Translations under genes and position numbers: made by a program | The notes under the pieces: model-generated | Told to the model about the DNA's origin: nothing | Seen by the model: only the letters and a program-made list of their open reading frames with translations | The model's database searches: none | In this document: in pieces, positions 1-19,359 of the stretch | Layout of the letters: each line of letters starts with the position of its first letter | How positions within the stretch are numbered: the stretch's first letter is position 1 | IMG/VR virus record: IMGVR_UViG_3300021197_000004 | Location: 1-24,301 of that record | Length of the DNA: 24,301 nt | Strand: one strand, 5' to 3' | Origin: a virus

Positions 1-23
1 CTAATTAGCGTTTTAACGTCCAT
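1..23 (-). CDS. Start of an unknown gene, cut by the window edge
   Basis: Only the first seven codons are visible, beginning MDVKTLI. The ATG shares its A with the TAA of the upstream gene (TAATG), the coupling used repeatedly in this phage. A GGGGAG stretch lies about 6 bases upstream as a ribosome binding site. Nothing can be said about function. Confidence 0.5.
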
Positions 24-478
24 TAGTGGCTCCCCATTACAAGTCTATCTAAATAAATTAAATCCTGATAAGAGTCCATTACAAGCTCTTCCATGCTTGG
101 CTCCAAATACATGTATAACTGATGCCTAATTTCTTCAAGGAAGTCAGGCGTATCCAGTATGTCCTCAAAATCGTCCAGAGCCTCCGACAAGTAAGCATCG
201 TTATCAACGTCCTTAGCGTTTCTATCCGCAGCATCGCGGAACATAGCAGCAGCCATCCTAGATGTAGCGTCCTCGCTGTAAATAGCCTCTAGGGCCAGTA
301 AGGGCTTGTCGCTAACTGTATGAGGAAATACATCGTCCATCCAAGTCGGGTGGGTGATTAACCAGAGAGCGATAAGTCCGTCCTTAGTCTTGTCTGGCAG
401 TTCCTGATAGCTGCCCTCCCACATTGGGGTTTCGTCGCGTATAAGGCCAACAGCGTCATTTAATACTTTGTAAGACAT
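23..478 (-). CDS. Hypothetical acidic protein, 151 aa
   Basis: I do not recognise a family. The product is strongly acidic, with a run of Asp/Glu-rich segments in the middle (about residues 85-125) and no membrane segment or cysteine motif. The start chosen is the ATG at 478, giving MSYKVLND, because it overlaps the upstream stop as TAATG and has a GGGGG stretch 7-8 bases upstream. A TTG two codons earlier is a weaker option. It is translationally coupled to the small membrane protein before it and to the gene cut by the edge. Acidic small phage proteins are sometimes inhibitors or DNA mimics, but that is only a thought here. Confidence 0.75.
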   Translation of the reverse strand: MSYKVLNDAVGLIRDETPMWEGSYQELPDKTKDGLIALWLITHPTWMDDVFPHTVSDKPLLALEAIYSEDATSRMAAAMFRDAADRNAKDVDNDAYLSEALDDFEDILDTPDFLEEIRHQLYMYLEPSMEELVMDSYQDLIYLDRLVMGSH

Positions 479-645
479 TAGCAAACCCCCAGCTTAATGC
501 AGTCATAGTATTCCATATTAGAGACTATTCCGTACAAAATAAGCAGTATAGCCGCGCCTACGAATCCAGCCCTAGATTCAGCCACTTCTTGCAGCTTGGC
601 TTCACGGGCCTTGATATCCTTTAAACAACATTCATTGATTTTCAT
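478..645 (-). CDS. Small membrane protein, 55 aa
   Basis: An AAGGGG ribosome binding site lies about 6 bases before the ATG at 645. The protein starts MKINECCLKD, has a charged amphipathic stretch (residues 9-26), then one hydrophobic segment (about 29-43, AAILLILYG core) and a short tail with a cysteine at each end. It is probably a single-pass inner-membrane peptide. Longer in-frame starts up to 711 would run through a GC hairpin and into the preceding gene, so I reject them. Function is unknown. It sits in a coupled chain with two downstream genes of unknown role. Confidence 0.65.
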   Translation of the reverse strand: MKINECCLKDIKAREAKLQEVAESRAGFVGAAILLILYGIVSNMEYYDCIKLGVC

Positions 646-668
646 ATTATTCCCCTTGTTTTTTGATT

Positions 669-684
669 GCCCCCCGTAGGGGGC
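669..684 (-). terminator. GC hairpin after the 96-aa gene, weak terminator
   Basis: On the minus strand GCCCCC, a TACG loop and GGGGGC form a 6-bp stem with a UNCG-type loop, 7 bases after the stop of the 692-982 gene. The bases that follow are A-rich rather than T-rich, so termination may be poor. It may act mainly as a 3' mRNA stabiliser. The intervening bases (TTAACC on the minus strand) match those before the hairpin at 7777-7790. Confidence 0.5.
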
Positions 685-691
685 GGTTAAG

Positions 692-982
692 TTATTTGCC
701 TTTGTATCCAAGATATTCCATAGCGTGTCTTGGAGTAGATTCTTGTTGTAATTCTAAAAAATCTTCAACGGAAACAGCTTTTTTACATAAAAAGTTAATC
801 CAAGACTTGTAAGGTTTGCGGCCGTATTTAAATCTAGCGATAAAAGCAGGTTTTGGCTTACCAACCCAAGAAGGGTGGCAGTCTGGGTGAACTTCATCCA
901 TGTTGGGCTGGCCTTCGTACGTTCCAGCATACATAAGATACATTCCGTCCCAAGTAAAATCTTCTTTATTAAATCTAGTCAT
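692..982 (-). CDS. Conserved hypothetical phage protein, 96 aa
   Basis: The N-terminus (MTRFNKEDFTWDGMYLMY) and the later motif FIARFKYGRKPYKSW resemble a small family I recall from phage genomes, without a known function. The protein is basic and aromatic-rich, with no membrane segment. It has its own promoter (TTTACA, 17 bases, TAGTAT) about 35 bases upstream and a hairpin directly after the stop, so it forms a stand-alone expression unit. Its leader, with TCAATAAATAAAGG before the ATG, closely matches the leaders of the 1098-1484 and 7798-8160 genes. A host-takeover or accessory role is possible but not shown. Confidence 0.8.
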   Translation of the reverse strand: MTRFNKEDFTWDGMYLMYAGTYEGQPNMDEVHPDCHPSWVGKPKPAFIARFKYGRKPYKSWINFLCKKAVSVEDFLELQQESTPRHAMEYLGYKGK

Positions 983-1016
983 AATGTATTACCCTTTATT
1001 TATTGATTGAGGTTAT

Positions 1017-1045
1017 ATACTAACAAACATTTACATAAATGTAAA
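1017..1045 (-). promoter_or_regulatory. Sigma-70-like promoter overlapped by a palindrome
   Basis: On the minus strand TTTACA (1040-1045) is separated by exactly 17 bases from TAGTAT (1017-1022), and the ATG lies 34 bases further on. The -35 box is one arm of a near-perfect palindrome, TTTACAT-AA-ATGTAAA, at 1030-1045. A protein bound there would block RNA polymerase. This is a prediction from sequence only. Confidence 0.6.
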
Positions 1046-1066
1046 CAATTATTTAAACTATTTTGC

Positions 1067-1089
1067 AAAAAAAAAGCCCCCGAAGGGGC
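1067..1089 (-). terminator. Intrinsic terminator of the 128-aa gene
   Basis: On the minus strand a 5-bp stem GCCCC/GGGGC closes a TTCG tetraloop and is followed directly by nine T residues. It lies 8 bases after the stop of the 1098-1484 gene. This is a textbook Rho-independent terminator and separates that gene from the next promoter. Confidence 0.9.
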
Positions 1090-1097
1090 GGTAAGTC

Positions 1098-1484
1098 CTA
1101 AAAGGAAGGATCGCGGTAGGATTCCCTGCGGCCTATAAAAGCACCGCCATGGCCAGCGTTATAGCGGCCTGTATTTGGATTCTTGTAAACAGGTTTTAGT
1201 GAACCATCAACAATTCGGAATGTTTCCTCTCTGCCATCTGGGTCACGGCTATATTCGTAAACCTCGTCACCGTAACCAGTGCCGCCAACAATCTTGGCGT
1301 AGTCTTCCTGAAGAACAACGTATTGGTGTTTGCCTTTGGTAAATAGATTGGTTACTGTAGCGGCATAGCGGTCAGTCCAACCAGTAAGGGTAGCAGGATC
1401 ACCAACATTAATTTCTAGCTCTTCGTGATCGTAGCGAGAGTACATATAGTTAACCAGAGAGCCTGTATTTATACCTAATTTCAT
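1098..1484 (-). CDS. Conserved hypothetical protein, 128 aa
   Basis: The protein resembles a conserved family I recall from phages and bacteria. Shared blocks are VGDPATLTGWTDRYAATV (about residues 27-44), a TGRYN segment and a C-terminal RESYRDPSF. The family has no assigned function to my knowledge. There is no membrane segment and no cysteine. The ATG at 1484 is preceded by the leader shared with two other genes, containing AAAGG, and the gene ends at a strong TTCG-loop terminator. It is therefore a monocistronic unit, which suggests an early or host-interaction role. That role is inferred from arrangement only. Confidence 0.85.
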   Translation of the reverse strand: MKLGINTGSLVNYMYSRYDHEELEINVGDPATLTGWTDRYAATVTNLFTKGKHQYVVLQEDYAKIVGGTGYGDEVYEYSRDPDGREETFRIVDGSLKPVYKNPNTGRYNAGHGGAFIGRRESYRDPSF

Positions 1485-1520
1485 AATGATTTACCTTTGT
1501 TTATTGATTAATGAATGTTC

Positions 1521-1548
1521 ATACTATCAAAAACCACTATTAAAGTAA
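1521..1548 (-). promoter_or_regulatory. Probable promoter of the 128-aa gene
   Basis: A TAGTAT -10 box (1521-1526) lies 36 bases before the ATG, the same place as in the two sister cassettes. The -35 region (TTACTT with a 16-base spacer) is poor. The surrounding 1485-1621 interval is very AT-rich, holds two oppositely oriented TTATAAC-type repeats near 1570 and 1603, and contains no credible gene. Confidence 0.4.
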
Positions 1549-1621
1549 CCAATTATGTAAACTATCTTTATAACTTGTTGTAATAACTATAGCCTGGTTA
1601 TAACTTTCTAGTATATGTAAC

Positions 1622-2053
1622 TTAAAGCTCGCCAATTCTCCAAAGTTCTTGTTTTGTCTTTTCGCTTAGATTTCTAGCAAACTGGATTACTTCTTCCCTG
1701 TTAAACTTAGGCGATGCCCTCCAAGCCAAACGCTCCATAGCTTTTACCCTTCGCTCCCCATAGGTATCAACCATATATTGCCTGTATCGTAGCACATAGT
1801 GGGATTGCTTCATGCCCCATAGGTTACACGATGGGCATTGCGGGTGAATGTTTTCTTCGAATAGCTTAAATACTGTTCTGCCTCTAGGGATAAAGTGCCC
1901 GCCTTGCATGGCCTTGTAATGGTCTATCTTGCCGCAGGTAACGCACTGGCAGTATCCGTTGTCATCGCTTGCCTTTAGCCTTACAAGCCTTTGCAAGAGC
2001 TTGGCTGCCTTCTCTACTTCTTGGGCGACCGTAGACTTTTTACGCTTCGCCAT
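1622..2053 (-). CDS. ninG: NinG/Rap-like recombination protein
   Basis: NinG (Rap) of phage lambda is a zinc-containing nuclease that processes branched recombination intermediates. The diagnostic features are present. A CxCxxC cluster is at residues 35-40. It is followed by GGHFIPRG (51-58) and then FEENIHPQCPSCN, with His70, Cys73 and Cys76 completing an HNH-like zinc site. The length of 143 aa is shorter than lambda NinG, mainly at the N-terminus. The start chosen is ATG 2053, which overlaps the DUF3310 gene by 14 bases, with GAGAG upstream. A TTG five codons earlier is possible. It is the last gene of the replication and recombination run before the cassettes. Confidence 0.88.
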   Translation of the reverse strand: MAKRKKSTVAQEVEKAAKLLQRLVRLKASDDNGYCQCVTCGKIDHYKAMQGGHFIPRGRTVFKLFEENIHPQCPSCNLWGMKQSHYVLRYRQYMVDTYGERRVKAMERLAWRASPKFNREEVIQFARNLSEKTKQELWRIGEL

Positions 2054-2255
2054 TGATCTCTCGCTCAATCAAAAAATCAACGTAGTGCTTAATCTTTCGC
2101 AATGAATCTACCCCGCCCTTATCCTTCCAGCGAGTTATGTACTTAACGATATTACCTTCGCAAAAGTCTAGCTCGTTAGCCATTATGTATTCGATAGGCT
2201 GGATCGCTTTGTTTTTGTAGTGGTCTCCACCGACCTGATTGTCTAGTGCGCTCAT
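2040..2255 (-). CDS. DUF3310-family protein (nucleotide-kinase-related)
   Basis: This 71-aa protein is a compact match to DUF3310. The signature VGGDHYKNKAIQPIEYI is at residues 8-24, followed by LDFCEGNIVKYITRWKDKGG and a C-terminal KIKHYVDFLI helix. The domain occurs at the end of T7 gene 1.7 nucleotide kinase and as stand-alone small proteins in many phages. The stand-alone form has no proven activity that I know of. The ATG overlaps the zinc-ribbon gene stop by 4 bases (ATGA), so translation is coupled. A link to nucleotide metabolism during phage replication is reasonable from the family. Confidence 0.9.
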   Translation of the reverse strand: MSALDNQVGGDHYKNKAIQPIEYIMANELDFCEGNIVKYITRWKDKGGVDSLRKIKHYVDFLIEREINGEA

Positions 2256-2431
2256 TCTTCATCCCTTTTTTCAACAACTTCAATTTCTGTAGGCAAACCA
2301 ATGTTGCAATGAGAGCAAATACCGTAAGCATTGCCATCATCGCCAACCCAATACTCAAGACTATTCCCACACTCACAAAAGCATTTAGTAGCAATAATTC
2401 CATTTGACGGAAAGTTAATGACATTGCTCAT
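2252..2431 (-). CDS. Small zinc-ribbon protein, 59 aa
   Basis: The product starts MSNVINFPSNG and contains two cysteine pairs, C19-E-C21-G and C39-S-H-C42, typical of a small zinc ribbon. An extra Cys17 lies just before the first pair. The gene fits the operon precisely. Its ATG shares an A with the phosphoesterase stop (TGATG), and its TGA overlaps the next ATG (ATGA). A longer open frame over the same bases (2176-2424) is hydrophobic, lacks this fit and runs into DUF3310, so it is a shadow. The target of the ribbon, nucleic acid or protein, is unknown. Confidence 0.8.
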   Translation of the reverse strand: MSNVINFPSNGIIATKCFCECGNSLEYWVGDDGNAYGICSHCNIGLPTEIEVVEKRDEE

Positions 2432-3597
2432 CAGCCTACCTTAATCTTTACGCGAGAATCTTCTCCGCTATCTTTATGATAGACCACAGCACTCATTGAT
2501 CGCTCTGCTCCGTAGCCAGAATCTGAGTGCCATTGATCGGTGGCGGTTAGACTACCCCAGTGTTCGAAGTGCATAGAGCCTACTTCTCTGGCGGTGTGGT
2601 GGTGGATATGACCTAAATGGCAGTATCTGTTTTTGCTTTCGCTCCACTCATTATCAAGGTTCTTAATCACTGCTTGGAGTATCTGCTCATGCTTAATTCT
2701 GTCACCATGATGGAATACGAATAGATTGTTGTGCCACTGATAGTGTATGAATTTAGAGTAATTAGGCACGACATCAACTCGCGGCTCTTGATCGTATAGA
2801 AGCTCTAAACAGCTAGATAAGTGACAGGCCATATCGTGATCGTGATTGCCACGCACATTAATAACCACAACTTTTTTGTGGGTTTCAAGCATTTTTGTAA
2901 TTAAAAACCTAAACAGCCTGCCAGCAAGTTTAAATGTTCTCGAAATTCTCGAATCCACATCAACGGGGGTTCCTTTCGTAGTAGTGTTAAAGCTGGAATC
3001 GGCATGGAAAAAATCGCCTACATTTAAAAGAACTCCAACCTCAGCATTACCAACCCTATTTGCCAGCCTGTTTGTGGATTCTACTAATATTTGACTTGCT
3101 ATCTTTATATCCCAGTCATCAGAATCCATCTTGGTCTCGCTATCCGCAAGCATCCCAAAGTGGTGGTCGCCAATCATATACATAGCAAGATAGTCAGAGT
3201 TTACAGATTTAGGTTCTTTTGTGGGTTTCATAAACCCTTTGAGATCGTCGGTCATGCCTTCCATCATGGCATCGATCTTGGCTCTAATATCGCGTTTCTG
3301 AGGCTCTTGTATTACCCATTGGAGGGCAACTGATCCATCATCTTTATATGCTGTGGATATTCTTTTAGCTTCAAAGCCTTCTGCGGTCTGGTGGACTAAA
3401 TCCCTGTGCGGGGATACGCCCTGACTTGATGCTATACCCTCTAACCTGCGAAGCATTTTATCTATATTTCGCCTAGAGCTTCCGATCTTTTTGCTTGCTT
3501 TGTTAGCCGAGCCTGTCTCAATCACTGCATCTAGTATTTGATGATGCCTTTCGGTAGTTGCGAATTCCTTTAATACCCTTGGGTCTATCTTACTCAC
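2431..3597 (-). CDS. HTH-containing calcineurin-like metallophosphoesterase
   Basis: The C-terminal two-thirds is a metallophosphoesterase with every metal-binding motif in order: GDHH (residues 144-147), GDFFHAD (194-200), GNHDHD (250-255), HHGD (296-299) and GHIHHH (329-334). The first 60 residues look like a helix-turn-helix, with alternating helices around QILDAVIETGSANKASKKIG and a following RRNIDKMLRRL helix. This suggests a nucleic-acid-targeted phosphodiesterase or phosphatase. The start chosen is GTG 3597, because AGGAGG lies four bases upstream and the codon overlaps the previous stop (TAGTG). Starts further upstream would lie inside the NinB-like gene. The substrate is unknown. It sits among recombination genes, so a DNA or nucleotide substrate is plausible. 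Confidence 0.88.
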   Translation of the reverse strand: MSKIDPRVLKEFATTERHHQILDAVIETGSANKASKKIGSSRRNIDKMLRRLEGIASSQGVSPHRDLVHQTAEGFEAKRISTAYKDDGSVALQWVIQEPQKRDIRAKIDAMMEGMTDDLKGFMKPTKEPKSVNSDYLAMYMIGDHHFGMLADSETKMDSDDWDIKIASQILVESTNRLANRVGNAEVGVLLNVGDFFHADSSFNTTTKGTPVDVDSRISRTFKLAGRLFRFLITKMLETHKKVVVINVRGNHDHDMACHLSSCLELLYDQEPRVDVVPNYSKFIHYQWHNNLFVFHHGDRIKHEQILQAVIKNLDNEWSESKNRYCHLGHIHHHTAREVGSMHFEHWGSLTATDQWHSDSGYGAERSMSAVVYHKDSGEDSRVKIKVG

Positions 3598-4073
3598 TAT
3601 GCCTCCTGCTGGGCTTGTAAATCGGCATACTCGCTTTCTGCGGGTATTGATAACCGAATGCCCTGCTTGGTAGCCCAATGATAGACGTTATCAAGATAGT
3701 GTACAAATTCGCCTTTCGTTAGCTTGCTGGTGCTTTTGACTTGATCTGGGATTTGCTGTTTACCAATAGAGTAACTAGCGGTGCCAAGAAACCGCTTCTT
3801 TAACCATAATTTCCAAACCTCGGCAGGGTCTTCGTGATCAATCTTGTGGCCGTTGTCTGCCATTTTCTTTGCTATTTCCTTGTACCAAACATGAGACATA
3901 GCGTTCTGGCTTAGGCTTCTGGGGTTTTCATAGGGGTCTAGCTTGACTGCCAAAGGCGTACTGTAGTCCCAGTCTTGCATACGCTTAATGATATGAGGCA
4001 GCCTTTTCTCTAGCTCCTGCTTACTGCTTACCTTTACATGATCGCCCTGACTCACAGCTTTACCCGCAACCAT
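3597..4073 (-). CDS. NinB-like recombination protein
   Basis: The segment PRSLSQNAMSHVWYKEIAK (about residues 51-69) matches the RSLxQN signature of lambda NinB (Orf) and related phage proteins. These bind single-stranded DNA and stand in for RecFOR during phage recombination. The rest follows the family pattern, with a WKLWLKKRFLG region and an aromatic C-terminal helix (FVHYLDNVYHWA). An ATG at 4073 overlaps the upstream gene by 22 bases. A GTG at 4055 would overlap its TGA by 4 bases with GGGT upstream and is about equally likely. With NinG downstream this gives a Nin-type pair. Family assignment rests on the short signature. Confidence 0.72.
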   Translation of the reverse strand: MVAGKAVSQGDHVKVSSKQELEKRLPHIIKRMQDWDYSTPLAVKLDPYENPRSLSQNAMSHVWYKEIAKKMADNGHKIDHEDPAEVWKLWLKKRFLGTASYSIGKQQIPDQVKSTSKLTKGEFVHYLDNVYHWATKQGIRLSIPAESEYADLQAQQEA

Positions 4074-4369
4074 TTATCCATCATGCGTTCACAACTGTTT
4101 TCTAGCCTGCTAGCCGTTGCCACCCTTTCCCTCGCTGCCTTGTCATAACCCAGCCGATTCTTTTCAAATGCAAAAATCGGTTTTAGGTGGTCAGGCGTAC
4201 AGTATTGCGTACCATATAGCCTGCCTTTTAAGGTGCTGTACTTCAGGGTCTCAGCGTTCATTTCGTTGCAGACTTTTACATACTCAGCAATCGTGTAGCA
4301 TTTACCATGCTCCAGCTTTGGATGCTCGCCCCTAAACTCGACTAACCTTTTTGCATTCTTACTACGCAT
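4052..4369 (-). CDS. Hypothetical phage protein, 105 aa
   Basis: I cannot assign a function. The protein is basic, and its middle part (YTIAEYVKVCNEMNAETLKYSTLKGRLYG, given here by its ends at about residues 25-53) suggests a helical segment like those in small DNA-binding phage proteins. A CTPDHLKP motif follows. There is no membrane segment. The start overlaps the end of the replisome-organizer-like gene by 8 bases and its end overlaps the NinB-like gene, so the three are probably cotranslated. A role in replication or recombination is inferred from position alone. Confidence 0.75.
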   Translation of the reverse strand: MRSKNAKRLVEFRGEHPKLEHGKCYTIAEYVKVCNEMNAETLKYSTLKGRLYGTQYCTPDHLKPIFAFEKNRLGYDKAARERVATASRLENSCERMMDKWLRVKL

Positions 4370-4733
4370 TCTTTAATTCCCCGTCATAATAATAGCCAAA
4401 TTTAGAGAGGTAATATTGCTGCATCATTAGCCTTTTATCACCTTCCAAAAAAGTTACATCAGCAAGCTGCATATCAATAGACTTGCTGCGGATGCTATCG
4501 GACTTGCTGATTTTATTAGCGTGCGGTGAGCCGCCCTTATTTTGCGCTTTGGTTAGCCAACGGTTTACGAATCCCTTTATGCCTTGTTTGGTCTTGCGTT
4601 TGGCTGGGTTAGCATCGCACCATGATTCCATAGCCATAAGCTCTTGGTGTACGTTAACTGCTGGAAAGGCTCTCTGCCATGCAATGACATCTTTCTGCTC
4701 AGGCTGCCAATCTTCTTTGGTATTAAGTAACAT
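4362..4733 (-). CDS. Replisome organizer / helicase-loader-like protein
   Basis: The block PAVNVHQELMAMESWCDANPAKRKT followed by KQGIKGFVNRWLTKAQ (about residues 24-64) resembles the C-terminal part of phage replication initiators and DnaT-like loaders, which bring host DnaB helicase to the phage origin. At 123 aa the protein lacks the N-terminal winged-helix origin-binding domain of a full initiator. It is therefore either a stand-alone loader module or a reduced form. GGGGA lies about 6 bases before the ATG at 4733. No helicase or polymerase gene is visible in the window, so the other replication partners must lie beyond the left edge or come from the host. Confidence 0.6.
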   Translation of the reverse strand: MLLNTKEDWQPEQKDVIAWQRAFPAVNVHQELMAMESWCDANPAKRKTKQGIKGFVNRWLTKAQNKGGSPHANKISKSDSIRSKSIDMQLADVTFLEGDKRLMMQQYYLSKFGYYYDGELKNA

Positions 4734-4742
4734 TAATTTCCC

Positions 4743-5234
4743 CTACCCGTAATTAGCAAACTTGCCATGCAAATCTTGACGCATTTTCAAAGCGGCATAT
4801 TTAGCATCTTTAAGGTTGTCGTAAATGCCACCATATTTAGGTTTGCCTTTGCAACCAATTTGAACAATGTATTTTTTGCTGGCTTTATGCCAACAAACGC
4901 CTTTAATGCCAGTTTTATTCCTCTTCGATAATTTGGAATTGCTTGCATTTTGCGCCTGAGTGCATTCCCTTAAATTTTCAATTCTATTATCACTCCTATC
5001 ACCGTTGATGTGGTCAATAACCTTGGGCAAATAACCATATGTCGCGTAGAAAGCAGCTCTATGCCCATGTACCTTTTGTGCTCCTAAAGATAAAAAAACA
5101 TAACCCTGAGAGTTAATGTAGCCAGCCTTATCGCCAGCCCTTCTTTTAGGGTTATCTTTAATATGATAGAAATGGCCATCTTCTCTGTACTCTAGTATTT
5201 CTAACAGTTTGTCATAAACTTGAACATCTAACAT
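4743..5234 (-). CDS. HNH endonuclease with AP2 DNA-binding domain
   Basis: Two domains are clear. An HNH_3-type nuclease contains His58-Arg59, the core D74-H75-I-N77-G-D79 and the NRIENLRECTQAQNASNS block (about 83-100). An AP2-like DNA-binding domain begins near residue 108 (TGIKGVCWHKASKKYIVQI) and ends at the C-terminus. This pairing is common in free-standing phage homing endonucleases, which cut intron-less or allelic sites and spread by repair. The ATG at 5234 has AGGAG six bases upstream. It is flanked by a region without a convincing gene and a replication gene, with no intron halves visible, so it looks like a free-standing insertion. Confidence 0.92.
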   Translation of the reverse strand: MLDVQVYDKLLEILEYREDGHFYHIKDNPKRRAGDKAGYINSQGYVFLSLGAQKVHGHRAAFYATYGYLPKVIDHINGDRSDNRIENLRECTQAQNASNSKLSKRNKTGIKGVCWHKASKKYIVQIGCKGKPKYGGIYDNLKDAKYAALKMRQDLHGKFANYG

Positions 5235-5544
5235 TTTAAGCTCCTATGGCTCGGCAAGCCTCGCCTTGTTATTGATAAATTATATTTTGATAAATTGAAT
5301 TTACCTTTAACCCTTTTACTATAAAATAAAATATGCGATCTAAGGGCAAAGCAACTCAGCGGTTAGTTTGTGTTTGTATCGGATATCCAACCTATCCATC
5401 AACAGAAACCGATCTGTATCAGGGGCTATGCACTGGAGGGTCAACCACGCTCTGACGTTTTATTTAAGGATTTCGTCAGCCTCTAGCCCAAACACTTGTA
5501 CATTTAATATTACCTAAGCCAAAATGTACACAAAAAGCAATAGT
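5235..5544. other. Intergenic region of about 310 bases with inverted repeats
   Basis: No convincing gene is seen on either strand. From left to right it holds the HNH leader with an imperfect GC hairpin (5248-5265), an AT-rich stretch (about 5275-5335), and an inverted pair CTGACG/CGTCAG (5452-5457 and 5474-5479). A second inverted pair, TGTACATTT/AAATGTACA, lies at 5497-5505 and 5522-5530. Two very short open frames occur: plus strand ATG 5333, 40 codons, and minus strand TTG 5444 to TAG 5340, 34 codons. Neither has a good ribosome binding site. The block lies between a Cro-like regulator and an HNH gene and may be a regulatory region or the scar of an insertion. Confidence 0.6.
5497..5530. 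repeat. Inverted repeat TGTACATTT / AAATGTACA, operator-like
   Basis: Two 9-base arms are perfect reverse complements, separated by 16 bases. Each arm contains the self-complementary hexamer TGTACA. The pair lies 15-48 bases beyond the stop codon of the small HTH gene. Spacing and symmetry suit binding by a dimeric regulator, and the half-site resembles the AAATGTAAA arm in the promoter at 1030-1045. Binding by the neighbouring HTH protein is a guess. Confidence 0.45.
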
Positions 5545-5754
5545 CTAGTTATAATCAAAAGTTATAAAGTCTTGTATCGTTATATCCAAACATGAACAAA
5601 TTAACTGAATAGTATGTATCTTTAAGTTTTTGCTTTTACGCCAGCGCAATACCTGCTGGGGTGAGGTGTCAGCTATTTTGGCAAGCTGTCGGCTGTTTAC
5701 GCCTTTGTTGTTTTGTGCCGTTATAAGGCATTTGCCTGTATCGATTAATTCCAT
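5545..5754 (-). CDS. Small Cro/XRE-like HTH regulator, 69 aa
   Basis: This small protein has the layout of a Cro-type DNA-binding domain. A first helix is followed by NSRQLAKIADTSPQQVLRWRKSKN (a helix-turn-helix at about residues 19-43), then a helical C-terminus IHTIQLICSCLDITIQDF. It has no oligomerisation domain beyond that. An AAGG lies about 9 bases before the ATG at 5754. It is probably a repressor or activator of an adjacent promoter. Its neighbourhood, with palindromic TGTACA arms just beyond its stop, a recombination operon upstream and a plus-strand terminator behind its start, is that of a phage control region. No integrase or C1-size repressor is seen, so lysogeny is not supported. 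Confidence 0.75.
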   Translation of the reverse strand: MELIDTGKCLITAQNNKGVNSRQLAKIADTSPQQVLRWRKSKNLKIHTIQLICSCLDITIQDFITFDYN

Positions 5755-5817
5755 GATATTAAACCTTGTGATATATTAATTAGGTCGGTTCCCCCGATCG
5801 ACAACCTCCTATGGTTT

Positions 5818-5841
5818 GCCCCCCGAAAGGGGGGCTTTTTT
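5818..5841 (+). terminator. Plus-strand intrinsic terminator
   Basis: A 7-bp stem GCCCCCC/GGGGGGC closed by a GAAA tetraloop (5818-5835) is followed by six T residues (5836-5841) on the plus strand. It lies directly beyond the stop of the SSB-like gene. Read on the minus strand the hairpin is followed by AAACC, so it would not terminate efficiently in the direction of the known genes. It is the only terminator in the window facing plus, and no plus-strand gene precedes it. Confidence 0.75.
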
Positions 5842-5844
5842 ACC

Positions 5845-6159
5845 TCAGAACGGAATGTCAGCATCTAGCTCTTCCATCGTCATATCTTCTTTAGCCGTAG
5901 TTCCTTGCCCCGCAGAACCTGCTGGTGATCCTGAGTCGGTATAAAATACCTTAACATTGCCAAGAATAGGGGTTTTAGTCCCAGCGTCACGCTCTTCTTT
6001 ATCGACGGTCTGGCTGATAAAACCATTGTTGTCATACTGATCAGCTACTGCTGTATCTACAAAGGTAGTTAGGTCAAGATAAGTGCCTTTTGCTCCCTTA
6101 TACAGGCGCGACTTGTCGATTTTGGTAACATCAATTCGTACTGATAAGCCTACTTTCAT
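5845..6159 (-). CDS. Single-stranded DNA-binding protein-like, 104 aa
   Basis: The protein has a compact beta-rich body (residues 1-75) with the block DVTKIDKSRLYKGAKGTYLD, a low-complexity Gly/Ala/Ser linker, and an acidic C-terminal tail ending DADIPF. That tail is the hallmark of bacterial and phage SSB proteins, which use it to recruit partner enzymes. At 104 aa it is shorter than E. coli SSB. The ATG overlaps the exonuclease stop by 4 bases (ATGA), so SSB, exonuclease and annealing protein form one coupled operon. The tail and operon support the call. The fold itself is inferred. Confidence 0.75.
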   Translation of the reverse strand: MKVGLSVRIDVTKIDKSRLYKGAKGTYLDLTTFVDTAVADQYDNNGFISQTVDKEERDAGTKTPILGNVKVFYTDSGSPAGSAGQGTTAKEDMTMEELDADIPF

Positions 6160-6755
6160 TTTAACTTCTCCACTTGGTTTAAAATTTCCGCTACAGCCTT
6201 ATCGACCTCAGCGGCTAGTTTTGCGATATATTCATCATCGCGGTCAACACGCACAAGAACGTGCGGCATTTCTGGGTGGTAGGCAAAAAAGTCCCACCAC
6301 TCCCGTTTGGTTATCCACATACAGCCTTGAATTTGCTGCCAGTATTTTTTTACTCCTTCTTGCGGGTTAATCATATATTCCGCGTGCGTGGTAGGAGCAG
6401 GGCATTTAATTTCTAAACCACCTTGATTGTCTACCAATCCATCTGGAGAGCAACCAAACTTAAAGCTGGTGTCGAGGATAAATCCAGTCTCGATAACATT
6501 GTTGCCGGATATAAACTCGTATGCCTCTCTAGCTTCAGGCTCTAGATCAGTACCTCTCTGCATCCATTCGTTTACATATACAGGCTCTGCACACCCTCTA
6601 ATATTTTCTGCCACCAACTGCGCGATATATTTTGTCGCTTGTGATGATGGCTTTCCTGTTTGGGTTATAAGTCGCGCAAAACCACTGGCTGAAGGCTTGC
6701 CTAATCTTGCGGCAAGCCACTCATCCGTTCCCTGTTCATGGTCTAGGATAATCAT
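6156..6755 (-). CDS. YqaJ-like (lambda Exo-type) recombination exonuclease
   Basis: This is a PD-(D/E)xK nuclease of the YqaJ/lambda exonuclease class, which chews one strand of double-stranded ends to expose single strands for annealing. The motifs are in order: EQGTDEWLAARLGKPSAS at residues 7-24, RGTDLEPEA (67-75), the metal-binding CSPDGLV with Asp105, LEIKCP with Glu115 and Lys117, and the YWQQIQGCMW helix (138-147). The length of 199 aa is normal for the class. It is coupled by 4-base overlaps to the SSB-like gene downstream and the DUF1071 annealing protein upstream, the usual two-component recombinase pair. Confidence 0.93.
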   Translation of the reverse strand: MIILDHEQGTDEWLAARLGKPSASGFARLITQTGKPSSQATKYIAQLVAENIRGCAEPVYVNEWMQRGTDLEPEAREAYEFISGNNVIETGFILDTSFKFGCSPDGLVDNQGGLEIKCPAPTTHAEYMINPQEGVKKYWQQIQGCMWITKREWWDFFAYHPEMPHVLVRVDRDDEYIAKLAAEVDKAVAEILNQVEKLK

Positions 6756-7330
6756 CCATACACCCTGCGCTTGTTACGCAGAGCGTGCATAGCCCTGTCA
6801 AACTGCAAAGCAAGTAGTTGGCTTGGATTTTCGCACTTAAAATGCTTACAAAATGCGCCAACATCAGCATCACTTTCTTCAATCATGGCTTTAAGCTCTT
6901 TAGCTTGATCCTCAGTGATAATGGCATTTGCAACAACAGGGTTTATATCTTCGCCCGCATAAATGTGATGGCCAAGCCCGAACATTGCAAAACATTTAAC
7001 CAGACAGCGCATTTTGCTGGAGTTAATTGCAAATTTATCAGGGTTAGATATTGCTTTGTTTCGATGGTCCATAACAGGTAACCACATGTGTCGCATCATC
7101 ATCTGATCTTGCTCTGTACCAGTATGAATATGTACACAGCAAGTTACTTCTACTGTTCCTGTATCTTCACATTTATCTTGTTCAAACGAATAATGCAGAT
7201 CAGGGTAATGCTCCATCATAGTGCCGTAAGCCCATGCCCACGACAGATATGATAAGTTACCTTTTTTCTCAATATGCTGAGATACATCAATGGCAGATAA
7301 AGTTTGCCAAACTTGTTTAGATAAGCTCAT
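6752..7330 (-). CDS. DUF1071-family single-strand annealing protein
   Basis: The diagnostic motif SYLSWAWAYGTMMEHYP (residues 27-43) and the later FAMFGLGHHIYAGEDI region match DUF1071 proteins. These are regarded as single-strand annealing proteins functionally like Erf, Sak or Red-beta. They pair complementary strands exposed by the partner exonuclease. The C-terminal third is helical and charged and ends in RNKRRVYG. GGAGG precedes the ATG at 7330 by 6 bases, inside the preceding 59-aa gene. The next gene, coupled by 4 bases, encodes the YqaJ exonuclease. Confidence 0.88.
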   Translation of the reverse strand: MSLSKQVWQTLSAIDVSQHIEKKGNLSYLSWAWAYGTMMEHYPDLHYSFEQDKCEDTGTVEVTCCVHIHTGTEQDQMMMRHMWLPVMDHRNKAISNPDKFAINSSKMRCLVKCFAMFGLGHHIYAGEDINPVVANAIITEDQAKELKAMIEESDADVGAFCKHFKCENPSQLLALQFDRAMHALRNKRRVYG

Positions 7331-7496
7331 TTAGACCTCCTACAGTCAGCTCAGTTTTTGCAGTATTGCACTGCTCCAAAGCATACTGGTCTGCATAGCC
7401 CCAGTAATACTCTGGATTTTCTACATCCCGTACAGGATGCCCATGTAAACAGTCGTATTCGCCCTGTTCGTAATAACTTAAATCGTTAATGTTCAT
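7317..7496 (-). CDS. Small conserved-looking protein, 59 aa
   Basis: The ATG at 7496 overlaps the preceding TGA by 4 bases (ATGA), and the end overlaps the annealing-protein start by 14 bases. The protein starts MNINDLSYYEQGEYDCLHGHP and continues with GYADQYALEQ, so its pattern is YxQGxxDCxxGxP, a gap of about 12, then GYxxQYxxEQ. I recall similar small phage proteins of unknown function. The spacing of the Gly, Pro and aromatic residues loosely recalls ribosome-modulation-factor-like peptides, but the match is superficial. It is an acidic soluble peptide with no membrane segment. Confidence 0.75.
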   Translation of the reverse strand: MNINDLSYYEQGEYDCLHGHPVRDVENPEYYWGYADQYALEQCNTAKTELTVGGLNELI

Positions 7497-7756
7497 CGTT
7501 CAATCCCCTCGAATATATCCATGCAAATGTTTTCCCATAGTTCACCCCAGTTAATTCCATCAAAATCAAGAAAATCCTTAATCATGGTCGGAGTTTCTGC
7601 AACCTGTTCGTCAATAATTGACTCAATAAAACCTTGCAGATTGTCTGGGCTTTCGCAACAATCTTCTTCCAGCAAATTTCTAATGTAATCACCAAACCAA
7701 AGATTGATAAGCCAAGTATTACGATTAGTCCAGCCGTTATATTTTTTTATAGTCAT
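7493..7756 (-). CDS. NGWTNxxTW-type small phage protein, 87 aa
   Basis: The N-terminal motif YNGWTNRNTWLINLWFGD (about residues 6-23) is shared by many small phage and plasmid proteins, which I associate with the DUF7249 family. The role is unknown. The rest is acidic and helical, with a cysteine pair (CC, about 33-34). Of two adjacent ATGs the second (7756) is preferred, because the AGGAGG ribosome binding site lies 5 bases before it but only 2 before the first. It is the first gene of a coupled run leading into the recombination operon. Confidence 0.82.
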   Translation of the reverse strand: MTIKKYNGWTNRNTWLINLWFGDYIRNLLEEDCCESPDNLQGFIESIIDEQVAETPTMIKDFLDFDGINWGELWENICMDIFEGIER

Positions 7757-7776
7757 CATTGCCTCCTACAGCAAAT

Positions 7777-7790
7777 GCCCCCGAAGGGGC
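7777..7790 (-). terminator. TTCG hairpin after the 120-aa gene
   Basis: On the minus strand GCCCC, a TTCG loop and GGGGC form a 5-bp stem, 7 bases after the stop of the 7798-8160 gene. Only ATTTG follows, so it is at best a partial terminator. Readthrough would feed the recombination operon, which shows no clear promoter of its own. Confidence 0.6.
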
Positions 7791-7797
7791 GGTTAAA

Positions 7798-8160
7798 TTA
7801 TGCGCCGAGTTCAAATTTATTGGTTTTGCCAGCATAATTAGTATGTTTGAACATCCACTTGCCGTTAGTAAATTCCAAAAAACAAGGCGACTCCCATTCT
7901 TCACACACCACCTTTTCATCATCCTGTACTGACCAATCCATAATATATTCTGCCCAGTAGTCATCGCGCTGACTGATAGTTGTATCAAGGGTAGGAATAC
8001 CGTTCTCTAGGATTCTTTTAACGCAAGCGCCAGAAAGGTTTTCCATAACGTATGTATTACCGCCTTTAGACTTCCAGTGTTGCGGACATTCGCCCTTACC
8101 TTCCCAAGTGTGCGCTCCGTAGTTTTCTTCTAATTGAGTATTTATTACTAATTTAGCCAT
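7798..8160 (-). CDS. Conserved hypothetical phage protein, 120 aa
   Basis: The N-terminus MAKLVINTQLEENYGAHTW, followed by GECPQHWKSKGGNTYVMENL, matches a conserved small family I recall from aquatic phages. The family has no known function. The product is soluble and contains four cysteines and several tryptophans, so a metal site is conceivable but there is no clear CxxC pair. It has its own promoter (TATAAT at 8194-8199), the shared TCAATAAATAAAGG leader and a TTCG-loop hairpin after the stop. The same unit design is seen around 692-982 and 1098-1484. Confidence 0.85.
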   Translation of the reverse strand: MAKLVINTQLEENYGAHTWEGKGECPQHWKSKGGNTYVMENLSGACVKRILENGIPTLDTTISQRDDYWAEYIMDWSVQDDEKVVCEEWESPCFLEFTNGKWMFKHTNYAGKTNKFELGA

Positions 8161-8193
8161 AACGTATTACCTTTATTTATTGAATGTGGTTAC

Positions 8194-8222
8194 ATTATAG
8201 GCCATATTAGTTAAAAAGTACA
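8194..8222 (-). promoter_or_regulatory. Promoter of the 120-aa gene and recombination operon
   Basis: A consensus TATAAT (8194-8199) lies 33 bases before the ATG at 8160. Seventeen bases further upstream is TGTACT (8217-8222), a mediocre -35 box. It follows the endolysin terminator directly, so it starts a new transcript. Genes down to the regulator at 5545 have no clear promoter and may be reached by readthrough of the hairpin at 7777. Confidence 0.6.
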
Positions 8223-8243
8223 CTTTTTTGTTAATTAATATGC

Positions 8244-8271
8244 AAAAAAAAGCCCCGCACTTGGCAGGGCT
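8244..8271 (-). terminator. Strong intrinsic terminator after endolysin
   Basis: On the minus strand an 8-bp stem, AGCCCTGC with GTGGGGCT-side partners including one G-T pair, closes a 5-base loop (CAAGT). It is followed by a run of T residues (8244-8251). It ends the late morphogenesis and lysis transcript. Confidence 0.88.
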
Positions 8272-8288: not shown

Positions 8289-8681
8289 TTAATACGACCA
8301 AATAGCAGGGCAGGGGAAGCCGTCCTCTTCTGTGCAGGCATCTAGGTGGATAAACCGACCACCACCTTTCTGCTGGATACCTATTCTCTGTATACCATGC
8401 TTCTGTGCCACTCTAATGATTTCTAAAGCGTTTTCTCCGCTGGCCAGTATATCTACCGCCTTACCGTGCGTATGCGCTCCTTTGACCTCTTTGCGGGCTT
8501 CTATGGGGTGTTCTGGCGACCTGTAAGCAGAGGATAGTGCAAAACTAAAGCCGCACTCTTCGCGAATAGCGTTTAAAGTCTTTAGGAAGTCAGGATCAAA
8601 GCCTTGGTCGCCTGTGTGTCGGCAGGCCAATTCTTTCGGCTTAAAGTAATTCTTGTCTTCTGTCTTGGGTGATTTAGCCAT
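8289..8681 (-). CDS. M15-family peptidase endolysin
   Basis: The protein is a stand-alone zinc peptidase of the M15_3 type, which cleaves peptide cross-links in peptidoglycan at lysis. The zinc ligands are visible. The motif GAHTHGKAVD (residues 68-77) supplies His70 and Asp77, and RFIHLD supplies His112. The upstream YRSPEHP (53-59) is the usual substrate-side arginine region. At 130 aa it is a minimal endolysin without a cell-wall-binding domain or signal peptide, so it needs a holin to reach the wall. The holin gene ends one base before this gene's start, and the strong terminator follows. Confidence 0.92.
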   Translation of the reverse strand: MAKSPKTEDKNYFKPKELACRHTGDQGFDPDFLKTLNAIREECGFSFALSSAYRSPEHPIEARKEVKGAHTHGKAVDILASGENALEIIRVAQKHGIQRIGIQQKGGGRFIHLDACTEEDGFPCPAIWSY

Positions 8682-10208: not shown

Positions 10209-13200
10209 TTAAATTGCTGAGATGATGAAGGCGAGTAGTTCACTGTAGCGAACACCCATCCTAGTCTTTTCTTCGTTGGTTTCTTCGTCAGTCCAAGTAG
10301 TGCTGATGAACATTGCGTAGTCACCTGCGTCTAAACCCTCAGCAGCAAACGCAGCCTGTAGGTCTTGAGCAATGATTCCAAAGTGGACGCGAGCCTCATC
10401 GCCCTTCTCAGCTACTGAAGACTTCCAACGGAACTTACGCAGCAACCCTTTACAGGCTACAGCTACGCGTTGTTCTGCGTCAGACAGCTCTGCAATGTCC
10501 TGCTTCTCGTTGCGGTCAGATGTCTGGATAGTGCCGTTGGTGGCGTAGATGTCATCAAAGCGAACAGAACTGATTCCTAAGTCTATAGCATTATCCCTTC
10601 CGCTATTTGTTGAACTGTTAAAAGGAATTACTGCATCATTAGCATTGTTAAATTCTAAACCTGTATCTGCGGAGCCAATAGATAGCTGACCAGCCCTAGT
10701 ACCAATCCTGCCCACTTCACTCGAATCTTTATAAAAAAGCTGAGTAGGGCCGTCGCTGGATAGCCTCGTTAATACGCTTGCTTGAGTTCCGCTTGCGGTC
10801 GAATAAACTTGACCATTGCTGTATAAAACAGTGCCTGCTGTAGTCTGCGATGTAGCGGTCTTACCCACCAATAGGTTGCCCGAGCTATCAAAGATACCCC
10901 GTGGATTACCATCACCATCTGACAAGACGATGTTGTTGCTTGAGGTGCGGATGTCGAGGCCGTTTTGGTTGCCGTTGTAGCCGCCAATGATGGTATTCTT
11001 TGAGCCTGTGGTCATTAAATGACCTGCACCGTAGTTGCCTACGTTTGCAATGGTTCCTGAACCAACAAAGGTGTTGTATAGACCCGTTGTTAAATTGGAG
11101 CCTGCTCGTCTACCGACTGCTGTATTAAAAGTACCTGTAGTTAGAGTAATCAGTGCTTCATGCCCGATGGCTGTATTCACCCCACCTGTTGTGCAGGCTT
11201 TCAATACGTCAGCTCCAACAGCCACGTTTTCAGATGCGGTGGTGCTTGCGGTTAAAGCATTATGACCGACTGCTGTGTTGTCTCCATCTCCGCTTCCGCT
11301 AAACGCCCTCAAAGCAGAGTCACCGATGGCTACGTTTTTGCTTGCGGTGTTTGAGGTGTATAAAGACCTAAAGCCAAGAGCTACGTTAGATTGTCCAGAA
11401 GTGATTCCGTATCCAGCATCTTTACCAAGTGCAGTGTTCTCACTGCCTGTGGTGTTTGCGACTAAAGCACTTCTACCAACGGCTGTGTTGTTCCCTCCAG
11501 TAGTTATGTTAGCGCCAGCGTCCTTACCTACAGCAGTATTTGCAGAAGCAGTTGTACAGGCATATAAAGTACCACTACCAAGAGCTGTGTTAACGTCTCC
11601 TGTGGTGTTTGATTGTAAAGCAGACGTACCAACTGCTGTGTTGGAAGATGCTGTGGTGTTTGCGGTTAAAACATTTGCACCCACTCCTACGTTAGAAGAA
11701 CCTGAAGTGTTTGCGGCTAATACGCTGTGTCCAACTGCTGTGTTAGCGCTTGCGGTTGTAGCGGTACTTAAAGCCGCGTTTCCTATAGCTATGTTAGTCG
11801 AACCAGTTGTTATGGCGTAACCTGCATTTACTCCAAAGGCGTGATTGTAACTACCTGTGGTATTTGATTGTAAAGCGCCTTTACCAGTTGCTACGTTCTC
11901 TGTGCCTGTGGTGTTTGCTGTTAAAGATTTATAACCAACGGCTGTGTTGTTACTGGCTGTGGTGTTTGCGTCTAGAGCGTCTACTCCCATTGCAGTATTA
12001 TTACTACCTGTTGTATTAAGTCCTAAAGCCGCATAACCATACGCTGAGTTATCATTACCTGTGGTGTTAGCATCTAACGAAACCGTACCCACTGCTGAGT
12101 TACGAGTACCTGTAGTGTTTGCGACTAAAGCACTTTTACCAACTGCTGTGTTATGTGATGCTGTAGTGTTAGCATAAAGTGCGCCTTGACCCACAGCCGT
12201 ATTTTCTACTCCAGTAGTATTGCCACTTAAAGAAGAAGAACCTACAGCAACGTTTTCAATACCAGTGATATTAGCGTCTAAAGCTGATGCGCCAACTGCT
12301 GTGTTGTTGTGACCTGTGGTGTTTGCTTCTAAAGCAAATCTACCGACAGCCGTATTGTTACTAGCCGTTGTATTTCGGTGAAGTGCCTGTAAGCCCACAG
12401 CAGTGTTTTGTGAACCTGTGGTGTTGAATCTCAAGGCGTACATACCAATGGCGGTATTCTCAACCCCCGTAGTGTTACTTGTTGCTGCGCTAAAACCTAC
12501 AGCCGTATTGTCTCTGCTGGTGTTTGCGTATAAAGAAGCATAGCCAACTGCTGTGTTTGAAGCGCCTGTGGCGTTTGTGCTTAAAGAATACGCGCCAACT
12601 GCGGTACTGTAGAGACCAGTAGTAATCGCAGTACCTGCTTCATCACCCACGACAGTATTATAATTACCACCGCTTACAATGCTGTTACCTGCGTTGACAC
12701 CGAAACGGACGTTAGAGGTTCCTGCGGTTGGGGTGGATAGAGAGCCGTCTGATGCTATGCGGAATCTTTCGGCATCAGCCGTGATAAACCTAATGTAGTT
12801 AGCGTTGTCTGAGTGGATAGAGTAGGCGTTACTGGCTCCCCAACGGACACGATAGTTTGCATCTAAGTCTAACTGTCCTACGGATATGTCCACGTTGCCC
12901 GTAACGTCTATGCCTGTTTGGCTTATGACCATATTAGATGGAGAGCCATCATCATCACGGAAAGTCACGCTGTCACTGTCAATGTACAATGTGCCTACTG
13001 TGTTCTGTAAATGCGTGTAGCCAGAAGCGTGATGCTTAATTTTAAATTCGTCACTATCGCCTAGTGTTAATTCATCCCCGTCGCCCAATGCTATGCCACC
13101 GTTGGCTGTGATTTCGCCTGTGCTTGTAAGTGCCGCAAACGTAGGACTGTCACCTGTAGCAACACCCTGATTCAAAGCCTTAACGCTTGCAATAGCAGTC

Positions 13201-13457
13201 AACTCGCTGTCCATTAAGGCACCAGCGGCTGTCACGTTGGCTGTGTCTGTTACGTCTGCGGAGGCTTCGATGCCATCTAGCTTAGTACCGTCAGTAGCGA
13301 CATCACGACCATCAACAGTGGAAGTGGTCGTTATAGCACCAGTAAAAGCCGCACCAGATAGCTCGGCCTTATCGGTATTTAAATTGGTAAAGTTAGCATC
13401 AACTTCATTATTAGTTAGGGGCGAGCCTTTGCCTGCCCTTGTTGTAATAGTAGACAT
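10209..13457 (-). CDS. Large tail fibre with 17-residue repeats and S74 chaperone domain
   Basis: This 1082-aa protein is a trimeric fibre. Residues 1-35 (TRAGKGSPLTNNEVDANFTNLNTDKAE) resemble virion-attachment starts of aquatic phage fibres. Residues 267-794 hold about 31 units of a 17-residue repeat, NTAVGxxALxxNTTGxx, as in YadA-like trimeric heads, followed by two degenerate units. The last 105 residues are an S74 intramolecular chaperone, starting TSDRNEKQDI. Ser980 and Lys985 keep the i, i+5 catalytic spacing of known self-cleaving members, so the chaperone probably cuts itself off after trimerisation. GAGGGGG lies 6 bases before the ATG at 13457. The shaft between 120 and 260 is beta-rich. 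Confidence 0.93.
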   Translation of the reverse strand: MSTITTRAGKGSPLTNNEVDANFTNLNTDKAELSGAAFTGAITTTSTVDGRDVATDGTKLDGIEASADVTDTANVTAAGALMDSELTAIASVKALNQGVATGDSPTFAALTSTGEITANGGIALGDGDELTLGDSDEFKIKHHASGYTHLQNTVGTLYIDSDSVTFRDDDGSPSNMVISQTGIDVTGNVDISVGQLDLDANYRVRWGASNAYSIHSDNANYIRFITADAERFRIASDGSLSTPTAGTSNVRFGVNAGNSIVSGGNYNTVVGDEAGTAITTGLYSTAVGAYSLSTNATGASNTAVGYASLYANTSRDNTAVGFSAATSNTTGVENTAIGMYALRFNTTGSQNTAVGLQALHRNTTASNNTAVGRFALEANTTGHNNTAVGASALDANITGIENVAVGSSSLSGNTTGVENTAVGQGALYANTTASHNTAVGKSALVANTTGTRNSAVGTVSLDANTTGNDNSAYGYAALGLNTTGSNNTAMGVDALDANTTASNNTAVGYKSLTANTTGTENVATGKGALQSNTTGSYNHAFGVNAGYAITTGSTNIAIGNAALSTATTASANTAVGHSVLAANTSGSSNVGVGANVLTANTTASSNTAVGTSALQSNTTGDVNTALGSGTLYACTTASANTAVGKDAGANITTGGNNTAVGRSALVANTTGSENTALGKDAGYGITSGQSNVALGFRSLYTSNTASKNVAIGDSALRAFSGSGDGDNTAVGHNALTASTTASENVAVGADVLKACTTGGVNTAIGHEALITLTTGTFNTAVGRRAGSNLTTGLYNTFVGSGTIANVGNYGAGHLMTTGSKNTIIGGYNGNQNGLDIRTSSNNIVLSDGDGNPRGIFDSSGNLLVGKTATSQTTAGTVLYSNGQVYSTASGTQASVLTRLSSDGPTQLFYKDSSEVGRIGTRAGQLSIGSADTGLEFNNANDAVIPFNSSTNSGRDNAIDLGISSVRFDDIYATNGTIQTSDRNEKQDIAELSDAEQRVAVACKGLLRKFRWKSSVAEKGDEARVHFGIIAQDLQAAFAAEGLDAGDYAMFISTTWTDEETNEEKTRMGVRYSELLAFIISAI
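11076..12659 (-). repeat. About 31 tandem 51-base coding repeats in the fibre gene
   Basis: The interval encodes consecutive 17-residue units with the core NTAVG and NTTG. One unit is 16 residues and one is 19. Two longer degenerate units follow to about 10935. The DNA units are diverged at third positions, so the array is old and under protein selection rather than freshly duplicated. It keeps the other frames open and explains the long plus-strand open frames in this stretch. Confidence 0.9.
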
Positions 13458-18274: not shown

Positions 18275-18730
18275 TTACCCTAAAAAGCATTTGTGGTAAA
18301 CACGCTCTAAAAGATTAAATCCCATGCGCGTCATTAGGTTGTCAAAGGGGAACTCTGTTTTCATATTTAAAGTCATCAGAGAAACACCATTTTCTTTGCA
18401 ATGTGATTCTGCAAATTTAATTAGGTCTGAACCAGTAGCAGTTTTTCTATACTCAGGCTTTACATAAATCACATCAGTAGAAGCAAAAATATGATCTTTG
18501 TGGTGAATGCTTTTTGATACCATAACCACACAGTAACCAACTAGCTCGCCACCTTCCCTAGCAGTAAATATGTGCAATATGCCCATCTGATCTAGCAAAG
18601 CATATTCTTTCCAGTCTGGGTCTAGTGGTATTGTATCTTGGTTTGGCTCAGTCTCTGCCCAATGTTTATCAAGCAGTGGCTTTATATCTTCTTTGACATT
18701 AGCCATGCATTCATGTGCAATCTTTATCAT
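18275..18730 (-). CDS. GNAT-family N-acetyltransferase in the tail module
   Basis: The 151-aa protein has a GNAT fold. The strand DVIYVKPEYRKTATGSDLIKF (given by ends, residues 86-106) holds the acetyl-CoA loop in the form RKTATG rather than the strict Q/RxxGxG/A. A helix AESHCKENG follows, then a final strand with FNLLERVYHKCFLG. Relatives are sometimes found between tail genes in phages. The target is unknown and could be a structural protein or a host protein. It overlaps the upstream tail gene by 4 bases (ATGA) and lies 4 bases before the tip gene, so it is part of the late operon. Confidence 0.85.
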   Translation of the reverse strand: MIKIAHECMANVKEDIKPLLDKHWAETEPNQDTIPLDPDWKEYALLDQMGILHIFTAREGGELVGYCVVMVSKSIHHKDHIFASTDVIYVKPEYRKTATGSDLIKFAESHCKENGVSLMTLNMKTEFPFDNLMTRMGFNLLERVYHKCFLG

Positions 18731-19359
18731 CTGCCAATCCTCATTCCTCCACCACCACGCCCAGTATAGGTAGGATTCGATGCAGGTGAAGCTCTGCCCC
18801 AGATAATTTCTTTTTCTACTATTGCTGTTACGAACTCAAAACCTTTGTCGGTAGGGTGATCGATCTTCTGATCTTCTGCGGTGTAGCGCCTGACCTTTGC
18901 CCTTTCAAATGCAATTAATTTATTTTCGCAAGCAATAGATATAGTAGATGTCTCGCCTGATTCAGCGATAGTCATAGTATCCATAAAGCCAGCAAATATC
19001 ACAGTCGGGTCAGCTACTAAATCGCCAGAAGCATCAAACGCGCCAAGCATTACAGTTATGGGCCTGCCCTGATATTCGTGATCTTTAGCTATCACCACCA
19101 AAGATGATTTAACGCCTGTTAGGGTTACGTTAATACCACTGGCCTGCATATCAGATGTCTCAGTGACTGGGCTAATTCCTAACAAGTCACCAACGCCAGT
19201 ATAAGTCTCACTGTCATAGGTAAGATCGCCAACACCTGACCAAAGGTTTAATTCGTTAGGCGTTTCGCCTGAATCAAATACCATACGCACAAGGAATATA
19301 GGGCGCACGACATCAGCAGTTGATACTGCCTGCATTGCACTGGATAAAGCCCTACTCAT
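18727..19359 (-). CDS. Tail hub-like protein, DUF2163-type, 210 aa
   Basis: The protein begins with a helix, then strands IFLVRMVFDSGETPNELNLW and LTYDSETYTGVGDLLGIS (about residues 43-60). A mid domain carries VTLTGVKSSLVVIAKDHEYQGRPITV, given here by its ends at about 78-103. The C-terminus is Gly/Arg-rich (TGRGGGGMRIGR). The layout recalls DUF2163 proteins of tail tips. It is likely a hub component between the distal tail and the gpJ-like tip. The ATG overlaps the preceding stop by 4 bases. Family membership is moderate, position strong. Confidence 0.72.
   Translation of the reverse strand: MSRALSSAMQAVSTADVVRPIFLVRMVFDSGETPNELNLWSGVGDLTYDSETYTGVGDLLGISPVTETSDMQASGINVTLTGVKSSLVVIAKDHEYQGRPITVMLGAFDASGDLVADPTVIFAGFMDTMTIAESGETSTISIACENKLIAFERAKVRRYTAEDQKIDHPTDKGFEFVTAIVEKEIIWGRASPASNPTYTGRGGGGMRIGR

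Follow-up and report, generated by a model that had tools for sequence, protein, structure and literature searches.

A shared promoter-leader and hairpin frame around dissimilar small genes at two genome sites in uncultured marine siphophages

The locus and its shared flanks

The DNA analysed here, hereafter the window, is a 24.3-kb virus record (24,301 nucleotides) in which essentially every gene lies on the minus strand. It encodes a tape measure protein together with a siphovirus-type central tail fiber J, and its early region comprises a Sak annealase, an exonuclease, NinB/Orf, an HNH gene and NinG/Rap (Table 1). Three small minus-strand genes, referred to as slot genes g1, g2 and g3, occupy two sites: site I lies between the endolysin and the DUF7249-Sak-exonuclease operon (g3), and site II after NinG/Rap and before the gene at 23-484 (g2 and g1). 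A first guess that the latter gene encodes a small terminase found no support in the family search. Megablast of the window against cultured phages returned just two short matches, in a tail gene (10209-13457, minus strand) encoding a 1082-aa protein with dozens of NTTGxxNTAVG repeats; no other part of the window resembles cultured phages at the DNA level, the matches being to Roseobacter phages CRP-1 and CRP-7. The TerL of one related contig has HTVC111P-type pelagiphages as its nearest relatives (55%). A NinG query against bacterial and archaeal genomes yielded zero confirmed relatives.

Table 1. Features of the two sites and their anchors (positions in the window; all on the minus strand)
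Feature	Position	Strand	Remarks
Endolysin, peptidase M15-like	8289..8681	-	phrog_894, 5.7e-24; upstream anchor of site I; predicted terminator 8251-8271
Site I predicted promoter and 5' leader of g3	8158..8235	-	TGTACT-17-TATAAT; TCAATAAATAAAGGTAATACGTTATG; profile 44 bits
Slot gene g3	7798..8160	-	120 aa; relatives at 44 viral loci
C(UUCG)G hairpin of g3	7777..7790	-	7 nt past stop; no U-tract; then AGGAGG of next gene
DUF7249 gene	7493..7759	-	PF23907, 2.6e-13; first in core recombination operon
Sak single-strand annealing protein, Rad52-like	6752..7330	-	PF06378, 4.7e-39; phrog_8492; site I anchor
Phage recombination exonuclease	6156..6755	-	phrog_149, 9.9e-42; RecE-like phrog_434
NinB/Orf recombination mediator	3597..4073	-	phrog_72, 1.6e-27
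NinG/Rap junction endonuclease	1622..2068	-	phrog_5034, 1.4e-18; upstream anchor of site II
Site II first predicted promoter-leader, of g2	1482..1562	-	21 bits, weakest of the three
Slot gene g2	1098..1484	-	128 aa; relatives at 10 viral loci
C(UUCG)G hairpin and T9 tract of g2	1067..1089 (stem 1076-1089)	-	8 nt past stop; predicted intrinsic terminator; next promoter adjoins
Site II second predicted promoter-leader, of g1	980..1057	-	TTTACA-17-TAGTAT; 36 bits; promoter scan
Slot gene g1	692..982	-	96 aa
C(UACG)G hairpin of g1	669..684	-	7 nt past stop; no U-tract
Ribosome-binding region of next gene	653..668	-	AATCAAAAAACAAGGG; repeats the leader's second half behind the g1 hairpin
Small gene behind g1 hairpin	478..645	-	55 aa; relative directly behind leader in other phages (family 12)
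Conserved downstream anchor of site II	23..484	-	no family match

A first-pass annotation of this DNA had placed the three dissimilar genes in near-identical cassettes, with a -10 box 33-36 bases ahead of each ATG, a shared leader word and a hairpin 7 or 8 nt past each stop. The boxes can be read directly (TAGTAT, TAGTAT and TATAAT, ending 34, 36 and 33 nt ahead of the ATGs of g1, g2 and g3), the hairpins are present at the proposed distances, and the word TCAATAAA(T/C)AAAGG has, at zero mismatch, exactly three matches in the 24.3 kb, one for each gene. When the 72-nt upstream regions of the window were aligned pairwise (703 pairs), the top three scores belonged to the three slot-gene pairs (23, 21 and 5, the third being marginal alone), with the next best pair at 2. 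A leader profile built without the window scored 44 (g3), 36 (g1) and 21 bits (g2), compared to 8.4 bits for the best of 100 dinucleotide shuffles of the window; a profile from site I leaders only detected the site II leaders of the window, and the reverse also worked. The similarity is far above that of the other intergenic regions of the window, and the shared flanks are thereby upheld, but not the wording "near-identical", as two leaders compared across 72 nt share 56-69% of their positions, and 66-85% within the final 32 nt.

The leader consensus reads ACAAAA..GTTTAC.TT-n-TAT..T...ACCTCAATCAATAAA.AAAGGTA, followed by the ATG. Compared with cultured phages it gave a best E of 0.6, and the element is therefore not known among the cultured phages searched. 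The exact leader pattern, when run over all viral contigs, also finds chance matches within genes of other phages (e.g. ...ACAGTCAATAAATAAAGGCATAGAGCTTATG), for which reason the counts given below rest on the full promoter-leader profile. At 1030-1050, and in several site II promoters of related phages, the -35 box is located inside an inverted repeat (GTTTAC-N6-GTAAAC type), which only some of the leaders have; this repeat is a possible operator, with the HTH gene at 5545-5754 as candidate regulator.

The three hairpins differ in what follows them. As the g1 and g3 stems lack a U-tract, a clear (predicted) terminator is present at g2 only, which makes g2 probably monocistronic. The other two read as UNCG tetraloop stems ahead of the ribosome site of the next gene; transcription of g3 probably continues into the Sak operon, and that of g1 probably into the genes at 478-645 and 23-484. 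The expectation of three monocistronic transcripts is thus plausible for g2 and fails for g1 and g3.

Occupants of the two sites in related phages

Searches with three proteins and with the leader pattern, later extended by NinG and Sak as further queries, brought together about 390 loci; 20 whole contigs were read, and leaders were counted in a 150-sequence set at E<1e-3. The related contigs, from uncultured marine siphophages, contained 104 leaders, of which site I accounted for 45 and site II for 53, with 6 elsewhere. Each site holds one to three units, and most related contigs carry 2-4 leader copies. Directly behind a leader, 43 protein families were found (18 at site I, 25 at site II), a few of which are core genes such as DUF7249, and some families are present at both sites. 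The DUF7249 gene has its own leader copy in most relatives but none in the window, where it directly follows the g3 hairpin. In 13 instances the leader is the predicted promoter of the core DUF7249-Sak operon, which would place the slots under early control.

A perfect GC hairpin near the stop was identified for 62 of 98 slot genes, exactly 7 nt past the stop in 33 and 10 nt in 12, and preceded by AACC in 36. The loops are UNCG in 40 and GNRA in 13 (together 53 of the 62), and this interchange of loop types at one place indicates a function as RNA; the stems may serve in mRNA 3' protection or cistron insulation. A U-tract stands behind about 14 of the 62, while hairpins without one run into leader-like sequence and a ribosome site (e.g. 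AATCAAAAAACAAGG). No perfect GC hairpin lies within 50 nt of the stop in the other 36 of the 98 slot genes, so the 3' half of the frame is optional.

Pfam and PHROG searches found no match for the g3 protein, and its structure model, although confident (pLDDT 90), had no PDB fold match; the same was true in PDB for the g1 model (pLDDT 91.5). The leader-borne copies of the g2 family were all at site II (7/7), whereas g1 is located at site II in the window and contig G004 and at site I in G003. A protein 61.5% identical to g1 is present in Methylophilales phage Melnitz, and g1 relatives occur at at least 80 viral loci, well outside this phage group. In unrelated phages these relatives have no leader; among those loci it was found only in L110. 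For 38 slot proteins, Pfam and PHROGs returned DUF7249 (2), one weak unrelated match and function-less PHROGs. Judged by size, novelty and turnover, the slot genes may be host-takeover or counter-defence factors, and the slot position is where such genes are expected. The leader profile represents a practical bait in this respect, having pulled out ~40 families of small early genes, almost all of unknown function.

That different genes occupy the same flanks in related phages, as the annotation had anticipated, is best seen in contig pairs with an unrelated gene between flanks of at least 80% identity over at least 150 bp on both sides. There were 27 such pairs, representing 18 distinct family pairs, which share lineages and are not independent. 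Homology breaks at a median of +3 from the A of the ATG and returns at a median of -1 from the last base of the stop, although the conserved frame makes any exchange appear exact to the reading frame, so that these medians do not locate the real crossover points within leader or hairpin. In the best case (L292/L277) an identical 72-nt leader precedes unrelated genes, with flanks of 904 and 902 bp at 94% and 93% identity, and three further loci (L340, L336 and L337) carry three different genes between flanks that are 95-98% identical. Among the non-homologous blocks in 24 collinear contig pairs, 32 of 73 fall within slots.

The nearest leader of another gene was at the same site in 82% of cases, compared to 49% (maximum 62%) after permutation; leaders thus cluster by site, not by gene, and expression signals are usually not carried along with the gene. 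This is illustrated by g1, whose leaders from different sites are 58-64% identical to each other, whereas those of G003, G004 and the window reach 85-89% identity when compared with other genes' leaders from the respective site. The end of the G003 g1 leader is exactly the 14 nt found ahead of g3 in the window, one 14-nt stretch before the ATG is common to six families, and families 7 and 18 were each found with both of the same two leader ends. Other kinds of change were also detected: G002 has one extra leader-gene-terminator unit relative to G001, and in G005, relative to G001, a frame is inserted between a leader and the next ATG.

Explanations for the shared frame

The contig comparisons show that the frame remains at its genome site and that whole reading frames are replaced from start to stop, and we consider it likely that these sites are two fixed expression slots. 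A slot would consist of a constant early promoter with its whole 5' leader, one small accessory gene and, usually, a tetraloop GC stem ~7 nt past the stop, continued either by a U-tract and another promoter (a tandem cassette) or by the leader-like ribosome site of the next gene. With promoter, ribosome site and 3' hairpin already present, an incoming gene would be expressed early at once, and a non-T4 phage lineage could change its accessory genes with expression undisturbed.

In co-infected cells the short conserved flanks may undergo homologous recombination or annealing of single strands, and the Sak annealase, exonuclease, Orf and Rap that the phage itself encodes beside the slots may assist in this exchange. 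Exchange of short diverged sequences has been described for the Rad52-like phage recombinases Red-beta, RecT and Erf, and assistance to lambda Red for Orf and Rap; Sak is not among the annealases shown active on diverged DNA (PMC3945230). By analogy, flanks of ~75 nt and 20-40 nt would be plausible substrates. As the g1 relatives outside the group have no leader, entry from outside cannot use flank homology; a gene would first enter by another route, after which shuffling within the group could use the frame. The swapping of genes at conserved flanks and one common control scheme had been offered as alternatives in the first-pass annotation, and both hold, since genes swap in the frame and the leader also promotes the core operon.

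It could be argued that the control scheme is all there is, with an early promoter-UTR copied or selected and gene turnover resulting from illegitimate recombination that is kept when expression survives. The 13 core-operon leaders fit this explanation, as do the leaderless g1 relatives outside the group, which imply that some entry was non-homologous. We nevertheless regard it as unlikely, because the same genes turn up at both sites and are swapped between phages with 90-98% identical flanks, gene and leader end occur in a four-gamete combination, and remnants or variable spacers should be more frequent after illegitimate joining than the +3/-1 medians indicate. Small accessory genes with their own promoter and terminator are known as morons from lambdoid phages, and single insertion of such autonomous units, each with its own signals, would account for the g2 unit, with its predicted promoter and intrinsic terminator, and for the extra unit of G002 relative to G001. 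The site-bound leaders refute moron insertion as the general mode, and the U-tract is missing from most hairpins; we judge this explanation improbable overall, with whole-unit gain staying as a secondary mode. Of the three genes, g2 alone fits the picture of signals travelling with the gene, while in the slots generally they belong to the site and the gene alone is replaced. Finally, the relatives are all metagenome contigs and the within-genome copies amount to ~75 bp repeats, so that chance look-alikes among AT-rich leaders, or chimeric contigs joined at repeats, might be suspected. Shuffles reach 8.4 bits against 21-44, the copies within a genome differ, and arrangements repeat in separate metagenomes (G003 with L184 and L130; G004 with L047 and L196), which counts against chimeric assembly and renders an artefact extremely improbable.

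Returning to the fixed slots, we put forward tentatively, and with some doubt, that the promoter-UTR and tetraloop-hairpin ends have been selected as recombination handles in addition to expression signals, Sak-type annealing swapping whole reading frames between co-infecting siphophages. If true, this would represent a dedicated siphophage gene-exchange architecture, comparable to an integron but exact to the reading frame and operating with no site-specific recombinase. Many natural contig pairs narrow the swap down to start and stop codons, and with such short, defined flanks a long-standing question becomes open to direct testing, namely whether the joints of phage mosaics are recombination sites under selection.

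Comparison with known systems and other variable positions

Promoter early stem-loops (PeSLs) of T4-like phages were reportedly described by Arbiol in 2010 and Comeau in 2014. They are repeated composites of promoter and stem-loop, set around small genes of unrelated kinds in variable regions, and the shuffling of these genes has been attributed to them (PMC4503421). These promoter-terminator cassettes are the closest known system and appear to work in the same way. The likeness lies in the multiple similar copies in each genome, next to small genes unrelated to one another (here of 43 families in all), and, for tandem cassettes only, the order seen at 980-1089 of the window (C(UUCG)G stem, T9, TTTACA-17-TAGTAT, leader). 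In contrast to PeSLs, the phages here are of siphovirus type and not T4-like myoviruses with T4-type early promoters, there are only two fixed sites with site-bound leaders, the conserved element spans the whole 5' UTR up to the start codon, most stems are intercistronic tetraloops and not terminators, and exchanges resolve to start and stop codons.

Cluster K mycobacteriophages carry SAS/ESAS elements, the SAS being a conserved asymmetric 13-nt sequence (GGGATAGGAGCCC) near the start codons of many gene families, accompanied in about half of cases by a 17-bp inverted repeat, with no shown promoter and no 3' partner (PMC3203893). The position just ahead of the start codons of many families' genes is shared with the leader, but GGGATAGGAGCCC differs from the consensus found here (ACCTCAATCAATAAA.AAAGGTA), and ESAS tends to track the gene family whereas the leader tracks the site. 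In the nin region of lambdoid phages, short flanks known as boundary sequences serve as exchange points close to orf and rap. A corresponding event here would take place at short, diverged flanks, likewise beside orf and rap, although the lambdoid boundary sequences are not promoter-leaders. Phage T4 mRNAs contain ultrastable intercistronic CUUCGG hairpins, which the UUCG stems between genes resemble; unlike these, the stems described here are fixed ~7 nt past the stops of swappable genes, and UNCG and GNRA loops interchange.

Variation was also observed at positions that have no leader. The HNH gene at 4743-5234 (minus strand), which has an AP2-like domain, is replaced by other sequence in relatives and represents a third variable site. 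A glycosyltransferase-like gene (G002 18427-19089, cluster c55), present in some relatives only, belongs to a variable region downstream of site II. Lastly, a strong GC stem at 5818-5835, kept in position and sequence in most relatives, has a T-run on the plus strand, whereas on the coding strand no such run comes after the stem; it may end plus-strand transcription, or serve as an intercistronic stem ahead of the HTH gene at 5545-5754.
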